DNA of 56,203 bases from Clostridia bacterium (lineage in GTDB: Bacteria; Bacillota; Peptococcia; DRI-13; SM3-B62): contig JAHDQS010000037.1 in assembly GCA_018433675.1 (NCBI GenBank), forward strand, positions 1 through 56,203, read 5' to 3'. This document shows, one piece after another, positions 19,458 through 33,254 of this stretch. The notes below the pieces were generated by a model, which was given only the letters and a program-made list of their open reading frames with translations, was not told the origin of the DNA and did not search any database. Every line of letters begins with the position of its first letter. Position 1 is the stretch's first letter. Position numbers and translations under genes: made by a program.

Positions 19458-19486
19458 TTGACATGGCAGATGGAGGGATATATAAT
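19458..19486 (+). promoter_or_regulatory. strong promoter of tRNA-Pro(GGG)
   Basis: The boxes are perfect consensus: TTGACA (19458-19463), 17 bp, TATAAT (19481-19486). The tRNA begins 15 bp after the -10. Confidence 0.88.
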
Positions 19487-19501: not shown

Positions 19502-19579
19502 CGGGGCGTAGCTCAGTTTGGCTAGAGCGCCATCTTGGGGTGGTGGAGGCCGCTGGTTCAAGTCCAGTCGCTCCGACCA
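19502..19579 (+). tRNA. tRNA-Pro (anticodon GGG)
   Basis: The full cloverleaf is present with encoded CCA: 7-bp acceptor stem CGGGGCG/CGCTCCG, D-arm, anticodon arm CCATC-TTGGGGT-GGTGG giving anticodon GGG, and T-arm with TTCAAGT. Its last 11 bases plus one flanking T recur at 21183-21194 (see the islet entry). Confidence 0.95.
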
Positions 19580-19806
19580 TAAGTAAGTCATTTTAGGATT
19601 TGCCCATATTTCTGTAAATCGACAATTTTGTCTTATTGTCTTAATAATCTTCAGAACGTTATTCCGGAAAGCCTCGCTGAGCCTTCAGCCAGGGACATCA
19701 ACCCCCGGCCTATTTTTTTTACCCCTCATCTCTTGCGCCTTTAAATCGGGAGCCTATTGATATATTATGTTATTATATCCCAAGGGAAACAAGGGAGGTT
19801 TATGAT

Positions 19807-21108
19807 ATGCGGAAAACGATCAGTATTGCAATAGTAATCTTACTTATAATCACGTTGTTGCCCGCCTGTAGTTCCGATACACCATCGGCAGCGGAAGAAA
19901 CGGCAGCAGCGGAGCCGTCAACAGCGGACAGTACATATGTAAAACCGCTCGATCTGTTCGGCGGGGAGTTAAACCCTTTTTCCGATATTGAGTTTCCCGA
20001 AAGCTACACGCCGTATAAGGTTGATGTCAATATGAATGCCGACTTCGTCTTTTATGAGCTTTCATTATTGACCGAGGACCCGGAAGTCGTTTCCTTTACC
20101 GCGGCATTATTGAATGCCGAAGAGGATGATATTACGGCTCTGAAGCAGGCGTTACAGGAAGGAGACCTGCAAGAAACCGGGATGTATGGCGATACACTTG
20201 AATTCGAGATAGAAGTAAAGCCTGTGGAAGCCGACAGCGATTACTATACGGACGCGGTGGGTTATACTGTTACGTTATCGACGCAGCTTAACGAGGATAT
20301 GTTGGTACCGTACAGGCAGATCCTGAAGCAAAACATCAACAGTGGCGCGTTTCAATCTATGGGCGCGGATGAGCTGATTGATCAATTTGATTTGGCCGGC
20401 AACGGCAGTATAATCGTTGTGACGGGAAGCGTAAACTATGTAAATATAGGTTTTAATTACGAACTCGGCGAAGATTTTGATAAATGGAGCGATTACTTTC
20501 TCTCCGATACGTATCTCGGGCAGGACACCGTTATATACTGGGGAGAAGAAAATGTTTTCTCGTTTAATTACGGTGAATTGGTAACACGTGTTACATTGAT
20601 CCCTGAAAGCAACCGCGTCAGTTTTTATCAGGAAGTTGAAGGCACAGATGTAAACATATCGGATTACGTTCCTCCGCTTTCGCTCATCATGGTGGGTTTT
20701 GACAAGATGTGCAATTATTCAAGCGAGGATGGCAACATTTATGTTGGTATCCGCAAAGAGGTCTTTGGAGATATCGATAAGGGAGATGGCAACAATTATA
20801 TCCAATATAGTGATAACGGCAATGGGTATGACTGTTTTCTGGTGAGATACTGCAGAACTGAAGGGAAATACTATGTACAAATACAGAAGAACGACCTCAA
20901 AGCGGAGTACTACTACTATGCGTTTGAGGATAAATACACGGATATGGACGGTGTCGAGGATATTAGCGAACTAAAAGAACAAATGCAGACGATCATGAAT
21001 ACCGACGCAGATATGGTCATGGTACACCCGATCAATACGTTCGAGCAGTATATCATTGACACATTCGGCGTCAATTCCGATGCGTTGTATGATCTGCCGC
21101 TGGGATAG
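19807..21108 (+). CDS. putative lipoprotein of unknown function
   Basis: I do not recognise this 433-residue protein. It has a short basic N-terminus, a hydrophobic stretch and a lipobox LPAC (Cys21), then an Ala/Glu/Ser/Thr-rich linker (about 22-45), so it should be a lipid-anchored extracellular protein. The mature part is acidic and rich in Tyr, Asp and Asn with predicted beta structure. It has a repeated theme of aromatic/acidic residues and no evident enzyme motif. The start is ATG 19807 behind AAGGGAGG. Codon choice appears more GC-rich than in flanking genes. It lies alone inside a segment bounded by a repeat of the tRNA-Pro 3' end, which suggests horizontal origin. Confidence 0.75.
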   Translation: MRKTISIAIVILLIITLLPACSSDTPSAAEETAAAEPSTADSTYVKPLDLFGGELNPFSDIEFPESYTPYKVDVNMNADFVFYELSLLTEDPEVVSFTAALLNAEEDDITALKQALQEGDLQETGMYGDTLEFEIEVKPVEADSDYYTDAVGYTVTLSTQLNEDMLVPYRQILKQNINSGAFQSMGADELIDQFDLAGNGSIIVVTGSVNYVNIGFNYELGEDFDKWSDYFLSDTYLGQDTVIYWGEENVFSFNYGELVTRVTLIPESNRVSFYQEVEGTDVNISDYVPPLSLIMVGFDKMCNYSSEDGNIYVGIRKEVFGDIDKGDGNNYIQYSDNGNGYDCFLVRYCRTEGKYYVQIQKNDLKAEYYYYAFEDKYTDMDGVEDISELKEQMQTIMNTDADMVMVHPINTFEQYIIDTFGVNSDALYDLPLG

Positions 21109-21182
21109 AAATCCGAGCCGCGCTATTCAACAAACAGCCACCCCGCTTATAAACAGCACCCAAAAATTTAGACAGCTAATTC

Positions 21183-21194
21183 CGCTCCGACCAT
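21183..21194 (+). repeat. second copy of the 12-bp tRNA-Pro 3' end (possible attachment-site remnant)
   Basis: CGCTCCGACCAT here is identical to 19569-19580. The bases before it (ctaattc) do not continue the tRNA match and the bases after it are a T-run, so the identity covers only the 3' acceptor strand, CCA and one T. Confidence 0.6.
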
Positions 21195-21227: not shown

Positions 21228-21254
21228 AACTTGGCGAAAGCCAAGTTTTCTTTT
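21228..21254 (+). terminator. intrinsic terminator after the lipoprotein/tRNA-Pro region
   Basis: The 8-bp stem AACTTGGC/GCCAAGTT (21228-21235 with 21240-21247) closes a GAAA tetraloop and is followed by TTCTTTTTC. Confidence 0.88.
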
Positions 21255-27033: not shown

Positions 27034-27060
27034 ACCACCTGCAATGCGCGGGTGGTTTTC
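27034..27060 (+). terminator. first terminator after the tRNA array
   Basis: ACCACC (27034-27039) pairs with GGTGGT (27051-27056), followed by TTTTC. A second, longer hairpin follows directly. Confidence 0.75.
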
Positions 27061-27063
27061 GCA

Positions 27064-27116
27064 ATATAAAAGAGCGGCTTCAAGATCACACAGATCTTGA
27101 AGCCGCTCTTTTATAT
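27064..27116. terminator. 24-bp perfect hairpin, bidirectional terminator
   Basis: The left arm 27064-27087 is fully complementary to 27093-27116 around a 5-nt loop (acaca). One arm ends in A-rich and the other in T-rich sequence, so it can work on both strands. Together with the hairpin just upstream it insulates the tRNA array from the region that follows. Confidence 0.8.
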
Positions 27117-27724
27117 GTACTGGAGTTTTTACATTTTAATCTAATATACCTTGATCTATAGTTTGTCTATATCATAAGTTTCGCGTATTGGATAAAATTC
27201 TGTAAATTAACTACACAAAATTAGTAATGCAAAAAATATTTTAAAAGCAAGAAGGAAAATTTCAAAACAAGACGAAGTATATATACGTAAATGGAATAGA
27301 AAACAAAAAAAATGGAACATACTTCATGGGGATATTCACCCGATACCTTTAGGCAAAACACAAAAGGGTGGGTAGCGTGACTGTATAGTGCATATCCGAG
27401 TTGACATTAGTTTATGGACAAATATTTGCTGCAAAATGAAAATAAAAACTATTACAACCGCATAAAAACGGAACATAAAATATTAAATCCAAAAACTATA
27501 ACCGTGAGGTGGTTGTAAAGGATATAGAAGGCGTCAGGATAACAAAAAGAGGGGATGTTTTTTGATGACAGGTTTCAATGGAAAGAAAAAAACATTTAGA
27601 AATTTCTATACTAATAGCAATACTATTAGCATAGAAACAATCTTGCCTCCATGATTCAGGGATTGCCAGCGAACAAAAACCCATCAAGGTAAGTTTTTAT
27701 AATCAAAATGTAAGGGTGAGGTAA
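27117..27724 (+). other. 608-bp intergenic region upstream of the TRAP operon
   Basis: This AT-rich stretch has no convincing gene. It holds GAAGTAT/ATACTTC repeats (27274 and 27319), a CACC...GGTG fold around 27338-27372, a weak promoter (TTGACA 27401-27406, TATTTG 27423-27428), a TACAACC/GGTTGTA pair (27453 and 27511), and a 29-codon open frame (27565-27654) behind AGAGGGG that contains an inverted repeat. It is probably the regulatory leader of the TRAP module. No known riboswitch was recognised. Confidence 0.5.
27604..27636 (+). promoter_or_regulatory. 33-bp imperfect inverted repeat upstream of dctQ
   Basis: TTCTAT-a-CTAATAG (27604-27617) mirrors CTATTAG-c-ATAGAA (27623-27636) with one mismatch and a 5-nt centre. 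Its length and symmetry fit a dimeric-regulator operator or an mRNA hairpin for the transporter operon. No regulator gene lies in the module. Confidence 0.5.
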
Positions 27725-28249
27725 ATGAAGAGGTTTATTAAGACGGTTAATTTAATCAGTGAGTGGACAGGCCAAGCTGTAAAATGGTTAGTCCTGGTTT
27801 TGATCGTTACTGTTTCTTATGACGTTTTCATGCGGTATGTATTAAATAAACCAACAATTTGGTCATTTACGCTTAGTTATATGATTGGGGGGACTTTTTT
27901 TGTCATCGGACAGCCATATTTGCAGAAATACAAGGGGAATGTCAGGGTAGATATTCTTTATAACAAATTAAGCAAAAAGGCAAAACTGCTTCTTGATATT
28001 ATTAGCAGCTCATTACTATTTTTTCCGGTTTATTTCTTATTGACAAGAACTTTCTGGAATGATTTTATTCGATCTTTTCAACGGATGGAAGTGGATATAA
28101 GTACTACTTGGTATCCGCCGTTGTGGCCTTTTAAACTAATAGTCGCAATAGGTTTTACACTTTTTCTTATACAGTTTGTTGCGGATATATTGGAAGGTAT
28201 TTTTGATTATCTTAACCTCCGTACGAAAGGGGTTGATGAAAAATGCTAG
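27725..28249 (+). CDS. dctQ: TRAP transporter small membrane subunit (DctQ)
   Basis: This 174-residue protein has the four-helix DctQ layout, with the helix-2 region SYDVFMRYVLNKPTIW resembling the conserved family motif (normally VxxRYxFxxpxxW). In TRAP systems DctQ and DctM form the sodium-driven membrane part fed by a DctP binding protein. The start is ATG 27725 behind GGGTGAGG. Its stop overlaps the dctM start by 7 bp, so the two subunits are translationally coupled. The matching dctP is at 31231, after two dehydratase genes, instead of adjacent. Confidence 0.92.
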   Translation: MKRFIKTVNLISEWTGQAVKWLVLVLIVTVSYDVFMRYVLNKPTIWSFTLSYMIGGTFFVIGQPYLQKYKGNVRVDILYNKLSKKAKLLLDIISSSLLFFPVYFLLTRTFWNDFIRSFQRMEVDISTTWYPPLWPFKLIVAIGFTLFLIQFVADILEGIFDYLNLRTKGVDEKC

Positions 28250-29577
28250 AATTCACTCCGGAGTTTACCACTATAATTATGTTCGGTGGAGCGATATTAG
28301 GAATATTGGCGGGATTACCTATAGCTTTTGCTTTAGCAGGAATAACGGCTATTGTTGGGGTTTTGACCCAGGGCGTGCAAATATTTGAAATGTTTCGCAT
28401 GGGAGTATATTCCATTATGAGCGATTATGTATTTTTGGCTGTTCCTCTTTTTGTCTTTATGGGAAGTATGGTGGAAAAGACAGGTATTACAAAAAAAATG
28501 TTTGACACTTTATATGTATGGCTAGGTGGTCTGCGGGGAGGCTTAGCAATAGTTACTATTATTATCGGGGCAATTCTGGCGGCTTGTGTCGGTGTTGTTG
28601 CCGCTTCTGTAATTATGCTGGGTGTAATCGGTATCCCTGCAATGCTAAACAAAGGATATGACAAAAAAATTATTTGCGGTTCAATTTGCGCAGGCGGTTC
28701 TCTCGGTGTTCTTATACCACCTAGCATATTGATTGTGATGTATGGTCCTACAGCATCTCTGTCGGTTGGAAAACTGTTTATGGCAGCATTCATTCCGGGA
28801 CTTTTGCTAACAGGACTTTACGTTATTTACATTTATATACGTTGCTTGATTAATCCTAATTTGGGTCCGGTTTTATCGATTGAAGAAAGAAAAGTTCCAT
28901 TGGCCCAAAAAATCAAGATGCTTTTCACCTCTCTTCTTCCTCCCCTGTTTTTGATTTTTTCCGTTTTGGGGTCGATACTTCTTGGATTGGCTACTCCGAC
29001 GGAGGCAGCGGCTATCGGTGCTTTGGCTTCAGTTATATTGGCTGCTTGTTACCGGGTTTTGAACTGGGAACATTTAAAGGATGTATGTCTGACTACGGTA
29101 AAAGTGTCTTGTCTTGCCCAAATGGTAGCGTGGGGCGCTAAAATGTTTACGAATCTATTCCTAAAAATGGGTTGCGGCGATGTAGTGACAAGCACATTGC
29201 TTAATCTTCCTTTAGGAAAATGGGGTACTTTCTTTGTAATTATGTTCATACTCTTCATTTTAGGCATGTTTATTGACTGGCTGGGGATTATCTTTATTAT
29301 GGTGCCGATTATTACACCTCTTGCTGTGAAACTGGGATTTGACCCAATATGGTTTTCTATGATGGTTATAATTAACCTCCAGTTTTCTTTCATAACACCG
29401 CCTTTTGCATACTCCATATTTTATCTCAAAGGGATAGTAAAGGAAGAGTGGGACATTACGACTCAGGATATTATCTCAGGCATCTTACCCTACTTGGGCT
29501 TGATTGCTATTGCCATAGTTCTATGTATTATTTTTCCCGATATTATACTGTGGTTGCCTAATTTGTCAGTTAAATAA
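28243..29577 (+). CDS. dctM: TRAP transporter large membrane subunit (DctM)
   Basis: The 444-residue protein has about 12 membrane segments and the typical DctM features: an N-terminal IMFGGAILGILAGLPIAFAL, the central GGSLGVLIPPSILIVMYG hairpin that forms part of the substrate gate, and ATPTEAAAIGALA. DctM is the transport channel of TRAP systems, importing organic acids with Na+. The ATG overlaps dctQ and has AAAGGGG upstream inside that gene. Substrate identity depends on DctP and cannot be read here, but the following dehydratase suggests a sugar acid. Confidence 0.95.
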   Translation: MLEFTPEFTTIIMFGGAILGILAGLPIAFALAGITAIVGVLTQGVQIFEMFRMGVYSIMSDYVFLAVPLFVFMGSMVEKTGITKKMFDTLYVWLGGLRGGLAIVTIIIGAILAACVGVVAASVIMLGVIGIPAMLNKGYDKKIICGSICAGGSLGVLIPPSILIVMYGPTASLSVGKLFMAAFIPGLLLTGLYVIYIYIRCLINPNLGPVLSIEERKVPLAQKIKMLFTSLLPPLFLIFSVLGSILLGLATPTEAAAIGALASVILAACYRVLNWEHLKDVCLTTVKVSCLAQMVAWGAKMFTNLFLKMGCGDVVTSTLLNLPLGKWGTFFVIMFILFILGMFIDWLGIIFIMVPIITPLAVKLGFDPIWFSMMVIINLQFSFITPPFAYSIFYLKGIVKEEWDITTQDIISGILPYLGLIAIAIVLCIIFPDIILWLPNLSVK

Positions 29578-29618
29578 GATGAGCATTGAAATTAAACCTA
29601 TGAAAAGGGGGATTACCT

Positions 29619-29918
29619 ATGAGTAATGACAGTAAAGCAATCATTATTGACGAAAAGGATAATGTTGCCACTTTATTGTGCGACGGTGCTAAGAAAGGAT
29701 CGACGATGCAGGTTCAAATCGGTGAAAAAGAGGTGCAGGTTGAGATGCGGGACAACGTGGAATTCGGACATAAGATTGCGTTACATGATATCAAAAAGGG
29801 TGAACCTATTTTTAAATATGGAGAGATTATTGGACAGGCAGCAAGAGATATAGCCAAAGGGGAGCATGTCCATATCCATAATGTTGATAGTTGCAGAGGG
29901 TTAGCTGAAGAAAAGTAA
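29619..29918 (+). CDS. UxaA-type dehydratase small subunit (SAF domain)
   Basis: The 99-residue protein is a SAF domain matching the N-terminal part of altronate/galactarate dehydratases, with the characteristic DNV.FGHKIAL, KKGEPIFKYGEIIG and AKGEHVHIHNV segments. In many bacteria this domain is a separate small subunit working with the large subunit encoded next (6 bp gap to its open frame, 46 bp to the chosen start). Together they would dehydrate an aldonate or related hydroxy acid to a 2-keto-3-deoxy acid. The start is ATG behind AAAGGGGG. It is called by domain pattern and context. Confidence 0.88.
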   Translation: MSNDSKAIIIDEKDNVATLLCDGAKKGSTMQVQIGEKEVQVEMRDNVEFGHKIALHDIKKGEPIFKYGEIIGQAARDIAKGEHVHIHNVDSCRGLAEEK

Positions 29919-29963
29919 AATCAAATGATTCGGAAGGTTAAAAACATACAAGGAGTGATGAGA

Positions 29964-31121
29964 ATGGAATTGACGGGTTACCAACGTTCCAACGGACAGG
30001 TGGGCTTTAGGAACTATGTTGCAATCCTGCCGTCGGTGGGATGTGCTAATGATATCGTTAATGGACTGGGACATTTATATCCTAATGTGCTGGTTTTAAA
30101 TCACAGGCAAGGGTGTGGGCAGCTAGGGATTGACAAAGAGCAATCCGCAAGAACACTTGCCGGTTTGGGCAAGAACCCAAATATAGGCGCGGTTCTTGTG
30201 GTTGGGCTGGGATGTGAATCAATCACAGCAAATTATCTAGCCAATGAAATAGCAAAAACAGGGAAAAGGGTTGAGGTGTTGGTGGCGCAGAACGAGGGTT
30301 CAAATCTCAATACGCTGTCTAAGGGTAACGTTATTTTAAAAGATATGATTCATGAAGTCTCCAATATGAAAAGGACTCCATGTGATTTAAACAGTCTGAC
30401 ATTAGGTATAAAGTGCGGTTTGACAGATACTACATCCGGGCTTTCGTCAAATCCGGCGACGGGAGTCGCTGCTGATAGAATAATCGAAGCCGGAGGAACG
30501 GTCGTTTTTGGGGAAACACCTGAGGTGATTGGGGCGGAACATATATTGGGCAAAAGGGCTGTCAGTGAGGAGGTGAAACAGAGGCTTTGTCATTATGTGG
30601 AGCTATGTGAAAAAAGAGTTAAGGATTCCGGTGTAGATATTAGAGGAGCTAATCCGGCACCGGGCAACATAAAAGGCGGTATTACAAGTATTGAAGAAAA
30701 ATCCTTAGGTGCTATTAAAAAAGCAGGAAGTAAACCGCTCCAAGATGTTTTAGCCTATGGAGAAGTGCCGGAGGGAAAAGGTCTTTTCTTTATGGACGGT
30801 CCGGGCAGGACTCCGGAAGCGCTTACCGGCTTAAATGCTACAGGAGCACAGATAATAGTGTTTTCCACCGGCGGTGGTTCGCCGGCAGGAACACGTATTT
30901 CACCGGTTATTAAGGTTACCGGCAACTCAAGAACCGCTGAGGTAAGAAAAGATCATATAGATGTAAGTGTTGAGGGAATCATTAAAGGTGAAATGAATTT
31001 ACAGCAAGCAGGAGAAAGAATCTTTCAAGAAATAATTGAAGTAGCTTCCGGAAAAATGTCGAAAGCCGAGGTTTTTGGATATGGTAGCTTAAGTGTTTGG
31101 AATCTTGGAGTACATATGTAA
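29964..31121 (+). CDS. UxaA-family dehydratase large subunit
   Basis: The 385-residue protein matches the C-terminal catalytic part of UxaA/GarD dehydratases: N-terminal GYQRSNGQVGFRNYVAILPSVGCAN, HRQGCGQLG with Cys and His likely near the metal, ILVVGLGCE-type turn, and LGIKCGLTDTTSGLSSNPATG. The family uses Fe2+ or Mn2+ to dehydrate altronate, galactarate and related sulfo- or sugar acids. I start at ATG 29964, 8 nt after AAGGAG; the open frame extends to 29925. The exact substrate is unknown. No oxidoreductase, kinase or aldolase of the classical uronate route accompanies it, which suggests a different pathway. Confidence 0.9.
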   Translation: MELTGYQRSNGQVGFRNYVAILPSVGCANDIVNGLGHLYPNVLVLNHRQGCGQLGIDKEQSARTLAGLGKNPNIGAVLVVGLGCESITANYLANEIAKTGKRVEVLVAQNEGSNLNTLSKGNVILKDMIHEVSNMKRTPCDLNSLTLGIKCGLTDTTSGLSSNPATGVAADRIIEAGGTVVFGETPEVIGAEHILGKRAVSEEVKQRLCHYVELCEKRVKDSGVDIRGANPAPGNIKGGITSIEEKSLGAIKKAGSKPLQDVLAYGEVPEGKGLFFMDGPGRTPEALTGLNATGAQIIVFSTGGGSPAGTRISPVIKVTGNSRTAEVRKDHIDVSVEGIIKGEMNLQQAGERIFQEIIEVASGKMSKAEVFGYGSLSVWNLGVHM

Positions 31122-31230
31122 AAACACTTGTCTCGGTATTTCGCAAGTTAAGGGGGGTGACTTGATTTAAGTCTTAAATGAAATGGGGTTGTAGAATAAT
31201 AGTGGAAATAAAAACGAGGAGTGACATTTT

Positions 31231-32346
31231 ATGAAAAAAAGGATTGGGATATTTTTGTTGAGTGTTTTATTCTTATCAAGTGTCATTTTGTCAGGTTGTT
31301 CAGTAAAAGACCAAGAAACAGCTGCAACTGAAACAAGCGGTACAGAAGCAAAAACATACAATCTGACTATGCAGATTTCTGCTGCTGCAGGGACACCGTA
31401 TATGACCTGTGCTCAAGAGTTTGCCAGGAGAGTTAAAGAATCCAGCAACAACAGGCTGATCATAGATGTACAAGCTGGGGGTGCCATTGTGCCTGCCCAT
31501 GAAGTAACGGATGCTATTAACTCAGGTGTGCTGGATATAGCTGCTCCTAATCCCTCTATGGACCAAGGTCGTTTTGGAACAAAAGTGCTTCTTTTTGGCG
31601 CTTCGGGAACAACAGCGGGACCAAATGCTATGGAGTATTTGGGGTGGTTCTATAAAGGCGATGGAATGGAGATGGCAAATGAACTATATAAAGATTTTAA
31701 TGCCGTAGTAATCGGTGTTGCCAGTATTGCACCGGCAGAACTGTTTTGTCATTCCGACAAGCCTATTGATAAAATAGAGGATTTTAAAGGTTTGAAGTTC
31801 CGTACCATGGGTCTTTGGGCTGAGATCTTAAAGGATATGGGAGCGTCAGTTGTAACTGTTTCCGGCGGAGAAATCTATCAGGCTATGGAACAAGGAGTTG
31901 TTGATGCGTTTGAATATTGCGGACCGGGGGTAGATTGGGACATGGGGTTCCATGAAGTAGCCCAGTGCATTGGTGTACCGGGAATACATTCTCCGTTAAG
32001 CAGTAACCTGCTTATTGTTAATAAAACTAAATGGGAAGAGTTGCCCGCAGACCTTCAGGCGTTATTGAAGAGTGAAGCTTTGGCTACTTCCTTGAACGAC
32101 TATCTTGAGTTTTCTTATGGTGATGTCCTCGGTTTGCAAAAATATAAAGATTATGGCACAGAAACTGTTGTGCTCTCAGATGAATTGCAAAAGGAAATCT
32201 CTCAACGGGCTAAAAATCTAATGGAAGAATATTCTCAAGAGGATGCGGAATTTAAGAAAATCTATGATAACCAGCTCGACTTCATCCAAAAATGGATTTA
32301 TCGCGAAGATGCACTGCAACCGAAATACAACATATACAATAATTAA
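31231..32346 (+). CDS. dctP: TRAP transporter substrate-binding lipoprotein (DctP)
   Basis: This 371-residue extracellular binding protein carries a signal peptide with lipobox LSGC, so it is lipid-anchored, as expected in a Gram-positive. The mature protein shows the DctP pattern including the FKGLKFRTMG segment, whose Arg usually clamps the substrate carboxylate, and GEIYQAMEQGVVDAFEY. It should bind a carboxylate and pass it to DctQM. It is placed after the dehydratase genes. Two hairpins follow it before the decarboxylase gene. The ATG is preceded by GAGGAG. Confidence 0.93.
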   Translation: MKKRIGIFLLSVLFLSSVILSGCSVKDQETAATETSGTEAKTYNLTMQISAAAGTPYMTCAQEFARRVKESSNNRLIIDVQAGGAIVPAHEVTDAINSGVLDIAAPNPSMDQGRFGTKVLLFGASGTTAGPNAMEYLGWFYKGDGMEMANELYKDFNAVVIGVASIAPAELFCHSDKPIDKIEDFKGLKFRTMGLWAEILKDMGASVVTVSGGEIYQAMEQGVVDAFEYCGPGVDWDMGFHEVAQCIGVPGIHSPLSSNLLIVNKTKWEELPADLQALLKSEALATSLNDYLEFSYGDVLGLQKYKDYGTETVVLSDELQKEISQRAKNLMEEYSQEDAEFKKIYDNQLDFIQKWIYREDALQPKYNIYNN

Positions 32347-32350
32347 AGCA

Positions 32351-32424
32351 TATTAGGTTCTTGACACAAACCTAATACAACTCAACCCGGGCGGGGTCTG
32401 AAGATTGTATACTCGACCCTGCCC
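32351..32424 (+). promoter_or_regulatory. two stem-loops between dctP and the decarboxylase gene
   Basis: A 9-bp stem (TATTAGGTT 32351-32359 with AACCTAATA 32369-32377) is followed by a GC-rich stem (32389-32398 with 32415-32424). Neither has a T-run. Such hairpins often stabilise the upstream mRNA and favour expression of a binding protein over downstream genes. Confidence 0.55.
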
Positions 32425-32462
32425 CCCAAATTTATATAAATTATAAACGGAGGATGGAAAAA

Positions 32463-33194
32463 ATGGGGAATCTAACGAGGAAAAAATTTGGTTTATCCAT
32501 GCCAGTAAACTCGCCTTTATATAGTATGCCTGTATATTTTGAGGGTGTTGAGTCATTTTGGGTTGAGTATGAGACGGAGGTCGAAGCGGTTAACGAATTT
32601 TTACCAGAAGGATTAGATTCACTATCTCCGGCCGAAGCGTCGCTTGTAGTACTAAACATCGGCAACAGAAGTAGTGTAGGACCATATAAGGAAGCGGCTA
32701 TAACTATAGCTTGTAAATGGGAAGGCGAAATAAAAAGATTTATAGCACAACAGTTCGTCACTGCCGATGCTGCTATGGCTGCCGGACGTGAACCTTATGG
32801 ATGTCCCAAAAAAATTGGGCACATAGAAATAACCCACGAAAATGAAATAATGTTGGGTATTATCGAACGGCCTAGAAATAAAAGGATTTGTACAGTTTCC
32901 GTTTTACCGGAAAAACCAGTTGGAGCTGTAACACCAATGGTTAAAGTTCCGACGGTTAATTTAAAGGTTATCCCCAGCGTTGATGAAAAAGAGAAGTTTT
33001 CTTCCGTTGAGCTTATTGAGTACGAAGGGGTAAGAACAAATGTTAAAATGTGGGAATGCAAGGGCGATATAACCTTTGATTCGCCAAGCATATTTGATCC
33101 CTGGTACAAGATACCTGTTAAGAAAATCAAAAAGGCATATTATAGCACATTCGATTATATGATGCCCTTCGGTAGGGTGATAAAAAAATACTGA
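32463..33194 (+). CDS. acetoacetate decarboxylase-family protein
   Basis: The 243-residue protein keeps the Schiff-base Lys116 in YGCPKKIGH, matching the PKK of clostridial acetoacetate decarboxylase (Lys115), and Glu77 in PYKEAAI, near the family's conserved active-site Glu. Family members decarboxylate beta-keto acids or act as aldolase/dehydratases on related substrates. Here it follows a TRAP carboxylate transporter and UxaA-like dehydratase, so a role on the dehydrated keto acid is more likely than solvent production; that is inference. GGAGG lies 9 nt before ATG 32463; the earlier ATG 32454 directly abuts it and is less likely. Confidence 0.87.
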   Translation: MGNLTRKKFGLSMPVNSPLYSMPVYFEGVESFWVEYETEVEAVNEFLPEGLDSLSPAEASLVVLNIGNRSSVGPYKEAAITIACKWEGEIKRFIAQQFVTADAAMAAGREPYGCPKKIGHIEITHENEIMLGIIERPRNKRICTVSVLPEKPVGAVTPMVKVPTVNLKVIPSVDEKEKFSSVELIEYEGVRTNVKMWECKGDITFDSPSIFDPWYKIPVKKIKKAYYSTFDYMMPFGRVIKKY

Positions 33195-33221
33195 GGAGGT
33201 TCAAAAAATAAGGTATCACAC

Positions 33222-33246
33222 AAAAAAAGACGGTAATGGTACCGTC
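33222..33246 (-). terminator. terminator of the DUF4931 gene
   Basis: On the reverse strand a 7-bp stem (33240-33246 with 33229-33235) with a 4-nt loop is followed by seven T residues (33228-33222). Confidence 0.85.
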
Positions 33247-33254
33247 ATAGGAAA

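Follow-up and report, generated by a model that had tools for sequence, protein, structure and literature searches.

A Single-Gene Islet without an Integrase at the 3′ End of a tRNA-Pro Gene in a Clostridia Bacterium

Organization of the tRNA-Pro Locus

The window, i.e., the whole stretch of 56,203 nt analysed here, belongs to the 3.0-Mb draft genome of a Clostridia bacterium (G000) and carries a tRNA-Pro(GGG) gene, which ARAGORN places at 19502-19579. The 12-bp sequence CGCTCCGACCAT occurs there in two exact copies, at 19569-19580 and 21183-21194, with a spacing of 1614 bp. As the tRNA ends at 19579, the repeat comprises the last 11 nt of tRNA-Pro and one T. Throughout the genome this sequence was found twice on the forward strand and not at all on the reverse strand, its reversed control gave no match, and 100 shuffles of the window indicated that no such pair is expected by chance. 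The recurrence of the tRNA-Pro 3′ end 1.6 kb downstream, noticed in a first-pass annotation made from the letters of the window, is thereby confirmed, and these two copies are the only ones in the genome. The unique part of the insert measures 1602 bp, or 1614 bp with one repeat. The following features were recognized:

19458-19486, forward strand: consensus promoter of tRNA-Pro (TTGACA, 17 nt, TATAAT), from the pattern scan alone
19502-19579, forward strand: tRNA-Pro, anticodon GGG, the target gene, still complete after the insertion (ARAGORN; identical in the congener G001)
19569-19580, forward strand: 12-bp core repeat on the tRNA side, proposed attL core (exact repeat)
19581-21182, forward strand: unique part of the insert, 1602 bp (absent from G001)
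19628-19645, forward strand: tandem TTGTCTTA repeats (TTGTCTTATT / TTGTCTTAAT), candidate integrase arm sites (post hoc motif search)
19688-19720, forward strand: imperfect hairpin followed by U8, possible insert-borne terminator (-9.8 kcal/mol, z -1.98)
19807-21108, forward strand: predicted lipoprotein gene, 433 aa (ORF; lipobox-like LLPAC at residue 21)
21183-21194, forward strand: 12-bp core repeat on the far side, proposed attR core (exact repeat)
21228-21254, forward strand: terminator that originally followed tRNA-Pro, now 1.6 kb away from it (terminator scan, folding, alignment with G001)

The window scan returned a perfect consensus promoter for tRNA-Pro and called one terminator, which is the displaced one. 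Its hairpin (21228-21247) is the counterpart of the terminator that directly follows tRNA-Pro in G001, in agreement with the earlier suggestion that the original terminator had been moved away from its gene. The weak hairpin and U8 at 19688-19720, which was not called as a terminator in two other scans, may stop tRNA-Pro transcription within the insert; if it does not, transcripts started at the tRNA promoter may extend into the lipoprotein gene. No strong fold was seen at the right end of the insert.

The Lipoprotein Gene

The insert contains one convincing ORF, provided with a good ribosome-binding site. The N-terminus of the 433-aa product is lipobox-like, and the protein is a predicted lipoprotein; the lipobox cysteine is also present in the homologue from the genome G010. 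The protein matched no family in Pfam, NCBIfam, PADLOC, or PHROGs and no sequence in the PDB, the latter searched with a two-sequence profile, and its single-sequence structure model, with a mean pLDDT of 35, was uninformative.

Homologues are rare. They were detected in two of 99 other genomes, namely G010 (28% identity over nearly the full length) and G006 (two broken pieces), and in two of 397 other genomes of the phylum (G006 again, together with a weak match in G128, E 7e-4). No relatives were found in plasmids, phages, or viral contigs. A first scan of a genome collection gave no match, and a second one, performed with a two-sequence alignment, gave a single locus in the MAG HGW-Firmicutes-12, which may be the same as the G010 homologue. 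No tRNA was found near the homologue in the fetched stretches of G010 (20 kb) and G006 (12 kb), and these two loci thus lend no support to a tRNA-linked gene family. Further copies of the islet were not found elsewhere in the G000 draft genome.

The first-pass annotation had also attributed a different base use to this gene, which proved true only for third codon positions. With a GC3 of 0.52 the ORF stands out from the 41 other ORFs of the window (0.403 ± 0.025, highest value 0.453), whereas the overall GC of the insert (0.439) is ordinary: of 547 windows as long as the insert, 18% equal or exceed it. By codon likelihood the ORF ranks as the 15th most atypical of 42.

The Empty Site and the Direction of Change

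G001 is the sole other genome of the genus that was compared. A 201-bp probe made of tRNA-Pro and its upstream DNA matches G001 up to base 141 of the probe, which corresponds exactly to position 19580 of the window. When the surroundings of the insert were compared with G001 by BLAST, two collinear pieces were obtained that overlap on the G001 side by exactly 12 bp (L031 5438-5449), and the flanks are ~94-95% identical over 5.5 and 5.9 kb. The alignment with G001 reads tRNA-Pro directly followed by TTTTTTTA.TTCAG and a terminator hairpin, which is the sequence found after the second copy in the window; joining the two repeat copies of G000 restores the same arrangement of tRNA, TTTTTTTA, and hairpin terminator. 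The congener therefore presents the empty site foreseen in the first-pass annotation, with tRNA-Pro joined straight to the T-run.

The locus was followed into other relatives through the neighbouring gene speD. Among the 12 speD loci of relatives that were read, G001 included, eight have tRNA-Pro(GGG) 37-639 bp upstream, with CCA followed by T. At the remaining four (L014, L017, L018, and L020) the tRNA was not in the fetched stretch; two of these genomes, G009 and G008, were followed up, and G005 and G006 lie outside the inspected set. In G008, tRNA-Pro is located on a different contig from speD and has no second copy of its end. G009, where 1.6 kb separate tRNA-Pro from speD, was considered as a non-empty site and rejected, the tRNA being followed by its own terminator and there being no second tRNA-end copy. 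Its spacer (L102) contains an ORF that, by reading, is aminotransferase-like and of which a remnant is found in G002 (L103). The spacer thus belongs to the normal surroundings of the gene and does not represent an islet between att sites.

Altogether, ten relatives with tRNA-Pro were inspected (G001 and nine more); in these the end of the tRNA is followed by T, and the second copy is present in none of them. At the level of the class, CGCTCCGACCAT occurs in 18 of 46 genomes (G000 and 17 of the 45 others), and G000 alone has it twice on one contig; in G016 there is one on each of two contigs. The occupied site is the derived state, most simply a gain in the G000 lineage given the ten relatives without a second copy.

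Two explanations that dispense with a site-specific integration event have to be weighed at this point. As the direction of change is itself inferred and 12 bp would be plausible as a microhomology, the DNA might have been lost by precise excision from G001 and the other relatives, or gained by illegitimate recombination at the 12 bp in the absence of a site-specific enzyme. Both are improbable, since independent loss in each of the ten relatives is unlikely and since copies of tRNA 3′ ends are enriched in this genome (see below), which favours site specificity. Even less credit can be given to a transposon-type insertion whose 12-bp target duplication happened to hit the tRNA end. The exact direct repeat and the clean empty site are what such an event would leave behind, but no terminal inverted repeats exist at the ends of the insert (11 of 24 positions match, a value that 70% of shuffles reach), no transposase ORF is present in it, the repeat ends exactly where the tRNA ends, and the copies at other tRNA 3′ ends vary in length.

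Recombinases and the Proposed Mechanism

Neither ORF analysis nor family searches revealed an integrase gene or fragment in the insert, and no tyrosine recombinase or large serine recombinase was found on the contig of the window (C55). Together with the empty site in G001, this supports the claim of the first-pass annotation that DNA lacking its own integrase was inserted at the tRNA. The G000 draft genome encodes three tyrosine recombinases (306, 307, and 378-380 aa), and its large serine recombinases are all broken. Judged solely by length and score, the 306- and 307-aa proteins are taken to be XerC and XerD; the 378-aa protein scores above the cut-off of the NCBI model NF040815 (‘XerA’) and is XerA-like. 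No element integrase was recognized among these recombinases, and none of them, intact or broken, is located inside the tRNA islets of the genome. G001 has an integrase fragment (a 56-aa frame with a stop), and serine recombinase fragments occur in both genomes. One of those in G001, an 84-aa frame of a large serine recombinase (G001:C27:6335-6885), lies ~275 bp downstream of tRNA-Ala(CGC).

Recombination by a tyrosine integrase at the 3′ end of a tRNA gene rebuilds the tRNA on one side and leaves a copy of its 3′ fragment on the other, the direct repeats measuring 8-60 bp (PMC5704250). At the present locus, a circle with a 12-bp core identical to the tRNA end would have recombined with the tRNA-Pro gene through such an enzyme. 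A full tRNA-Pro would thereby have been rebuilt on the left, and the old 3′ fragment would have moved 1.6 kb downstream together with the terminator. We infer a tyrosine integrase as the agent, probably one encoded elsewhere or since lost; it may have disappeared with the rest of a larger island, or have belonged to an element that is no longer present or is missing from the assembly. With a probability of about 80%, the insert is thus best explained as a cargo-only islet of 1614 bp (attL, lipoprotein gene, attR) that integrated site-specifically at the 3′ end of tRNA-Pro(GGG) after the split from the congener. Besides the exact repeat, the empty site, and the missing integrase, the GC3 outlier, the sporadic homologues, the lack of terminal inverted repeats, and the like arrangement at other tRNA genes (see below) speak in its favour.

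Some observations weigh against this explanation: no responsible integrase was found, the overall GC and codon likelihood of the gene are ordinary, the islets of the genome have no end sequences in common, the complete genome G002 shows nothing comparable (see below), the 12-bp core is short, and the candidates for arm sites are weak. The latter are two tandem TTGTCTTA octamers at 48-65 bp from the left border; a loose inverted counterpart, with 2 mismatches, is found at 21166-21175, and 8 bp separate it from the right core. When up to 2 mismatches are allowed, TTGTCTTA has 215 matches across the window, and the octamers, picked post hoc, are at most suggestive as candidate integrase arm sites.

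How a site-specifically integrated islet came to lack an integrase admits two answers. A larger, integrase-bearing island might have decayed in place at tRNA-Pro, with deletions leaving the lipoprotein gene and two att ends, so that the 1.6-kb unit may be a remnant of an element whose integrase was lost after integration. This is the route given for classical CIMEs in PMC5704250. The recombinase fragments of the two genomes are in line with it, and the ~6% divergence from the congener (93.5% mean identity, 181 blocks) allows time for deletion. Four frames of the 226 bp between the tRNA and the gene, one of them mostly inside the gene, were scanned and show no integrase remnant, the lipoprotein gene has stayed intact, and other tRNAs carry islets that are just as small, all of which speaks against decay. 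Its chances are about even.

Alternatively, the element would have lacked an integrase from the outset and would rely on the recombinase of other elements, as is the case for CALIN cassettes and MITEs in other systems. Two short insertions polymorphic between the congeners, at tRNA-Pro in G000 and at tRNA-Leu in G001, speak for this, but the genome contains no other copy of the Pro islet, and the missing protein matches in plasmids, phages, and viral contigs also count against it. A ~99% identical block at tRNA-Ala(GGC), described below, hints that a region containing an integrase-less islet has moved recently; as this block extends ~0.9 kb beyond the tRNA copy, homologous recombination of the ordinary kind accounts for it just as well. 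On balance, mobilization in trans of a minimal element is somewhat unlikely.

Similar Islets at Other tRNA Genes

The tRNA genes of the draft genome were surveyed for repeats of at least 12 nt that end within -1 to +2 of a given point and recur at most 10 kb downstream. Five of the 48 tRNA 3′ ends in G000 have such a copy, compared with 44 of 8400 random points, a rate at which about 0.25 of the 48 would be expected (binomial P about 6e-6); the criterion was chosen after a first scan, and this enrichment test is therefore not blind. Repeats of 11-12 nt from that first scan were treated as chance when they ended elsewhere than at the 3′ end of a tRNA. The five islets of G000 are:

tRNA-Pro: copy at 1614 bp; predicted lipoprotein
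tRNA-Thr(CGT): copy at 1703 bp; KilA-N protein
tRNA-Ala(GGC): copy at 818 bp; Phd and ParE
tRNA-Leu(CAA): copies at 1958 and 1976 bp; Phd/ParE modules
tRNA-Ala(CGC): copy at 9431 bp; several genes

Apart from the Pro islet, three of the four are short (0.8-2 kb), the cargo being a KilA-N candidate defence gene at tRNA-Thr and Phd/ParE modules at the other two. From this company it might be guessed, by analogy, that the lipoprotein has an accessory surface or defence function. Strong islet-borne terminators stand directly behind the tRNA in the Thr, Leu, and Ala(GGC) islets, and none was found in the Pro and Ala(CGC) islets. No end sequences are common to the islets beyond homologous copies of the same islet, so no single enzyme accounts for all of them.

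Two of 54 listed tRNAs have a 3′-end copy in G001, where 41 of 8000 random points do; the list counts seven tRNAs twice owing to the overlap of loci L031 and L069, and the number by Rfam is 47. In G002, a complete genome from another family of the order, a copy was found for one of 49 tRNAs (control 68 of 8000). It is a small tandem duplication (L086), in which the tRNA-Ala(GGC) 3′ end and terminator are repeated (79 bp) 201 bp downstream, and the pattern is accordingly not order-wide.

The Thr(CGT) islet (L032:8658-10435, 1.7 kb) encodes a KilA-N protein matching the PADLOC candidate defence model PDC-S22 (E 1.8e-130), and G001 has different DNA at this tRNA. The Ala(CGC) island (L036, G000:C25) extends over 9.4 kb, has no tyrosine recombinase match, and is closed at its far end by a 32-nt copy, beside which the ORFs, by reading, resemble an AbiE-type pair. 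Tandem islets are found at tRNA-Leu(CAA) (L047, G000:C6; L067, G001:C59), where an older Phd/ParE islet is common to both genomes and is accompanied by an extra Phd/ParE pair in G000 and by a 692-bp islet in G001. The latter, which holds a 98-aa ORF for a putative small membrane protein, lies between the tRNA and the older islet. G000 across the tRNA-Leu end aligns with G001 across the internal copy (83%), which makes the 692-bp islet a second short insertion by which G000 and G001 differ. One tRNA-Leu 3′ copy in G000 (L047:9948-10052) is split by 44 bp in the T-loop region into pieces of 40 and 21 nt.

At tRNA-Ala(GGC), the two genomes share a block of ~99% identity (islet 748/758, downstream 928/937), preceded by upstream DNA at 90% (1417/1567). 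The block begins at the tRNA 3′ end, covers ~1.7 kb, and includes the Phd/ParE module (L043:2443-4168, L063). Against a background of 93.5 ± 2.4% mean identity in 181 blocks, only two blocks reach 99% or more, both at this tRNA, and they may reflect either element transfer or homologous recombination.

A further difference between the genomes lies within the window, where a 6.2-kb segment (27059-33248) absent from G001 starts 45 bp after tRNA-Leu(CAG); G001 continues within 10 bp (L069:1317-1327). It encodes, by reading of its ORFs, a TRAP transporter and sugar-acid-type enzymes, and its left border is an inverted repeat, not a tRNA copy.

These islets could be members of a genus-wide set of minimal tRNA-gene cassettes, that is, one-operon units of 0.7-1.7 kb made of hardly anything but cargo and att cores, which would spread between tRNA 3′ ends with borrowed integrases. 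Their possible cargo would comprise the lipoprotein (Pro), the small membrane protein (Leu), Phd/ParE (Ala), and the KilA-N candidate defence gene (Thr), and they might be seen as a tRNA-based counterpart of integrase-less integron cassettes. Such a generalization is tentative and, on present evidence, unlikely.

Comparison with Known Systems

Islands in tRNA genes are normally recognized through their integrase. Single-gene units without one escape integrase-based detection, yet at least five tRNA loci are concerned in one draft genome, two of them differing between congeners. If such units are moved by borrowed integrases, tRNA genes might serve as landing sites for a traffic of single genes encoding toxin-antitoxin systems, defence functions, and surface proteins. 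Part of the unexplained presence and absence of genes would then be directly testable through tRNA-end copies and empty sites.

Compared with integrase-bearing tRNA islands, the Pro insert has the same position at the 3′ end and the same copy at the far border but no integrase of its own. The terminal inverted repeats of insertion sequences and MITEs are absent. Hitcher elements such as MITEs and CALINs, the integrase-less integron cassettes, likewise depend on a recombinase from elsewhere (PMC11389934); the Pro islet differs from them in lacking terminal inverted repeats, in that an attC site is not expected, and in its target, a tRNA gene. Looser parallels are offered by islets at tRNA genes of Streptomyces (PMC1934918) and remnants at tRNA genes of Sulfolobus (PMC3718332). 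Among the papers listed by the literature searches, none was noticed that names tRNA islets of a single gene without an integrase.

The nearest published pattern found is that of the Dehalococcoides ssrA genomic islands: 15 of them are devoid of an integration module and were suggested to be CIMEs (PMC3146451). They too are integrase-less, adjoining units between short direct repeats (20 bp there) of the 3′ end of a tRNA-like gene. They follow one another at a single gene, ssrA, next to islands that do have a serine-recombinase module (PMC3146451), whereas in G000 the islets are spread over several tRNA genes, and no intact recombinase module was found in the draft genome.

CIMEs, or cis-mobilizable elements, were defined for relatives of streptococcal ICEs and IMEs (PMC5704250). 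The insert resembles them in having attL and attR at a tRNA 3′ end and no integration or transfer genes, and its 12-bp direct repeats fall within the 8-60 bp given in PMC5704250 for tyrosine-recombinase elements. Tandem accretion is seen here at tRNA-Leu. Unlike those CIMEs, the Pro islet consists of one gene in 1.6 kb and has no parent ICE or IME, autonomous neighbour, or accretion partner at tRNA-Pro. As to descent from an ICE or IME, the insert holds no remnant of one, and among the 46 class genomes only G000 has the paired 12-mer. By analogy, the insert might work as a CIME does, with a passenger gene between att sites that could be mobilized by any integrase recognizing them. The unusual points here are the small size, the content of one gene, and how many different tRNA genes are affected within a single genome; the tRNA-Pro insert is a very small, CIME-like example of the known stripped-down, site-specifically integrated islands.
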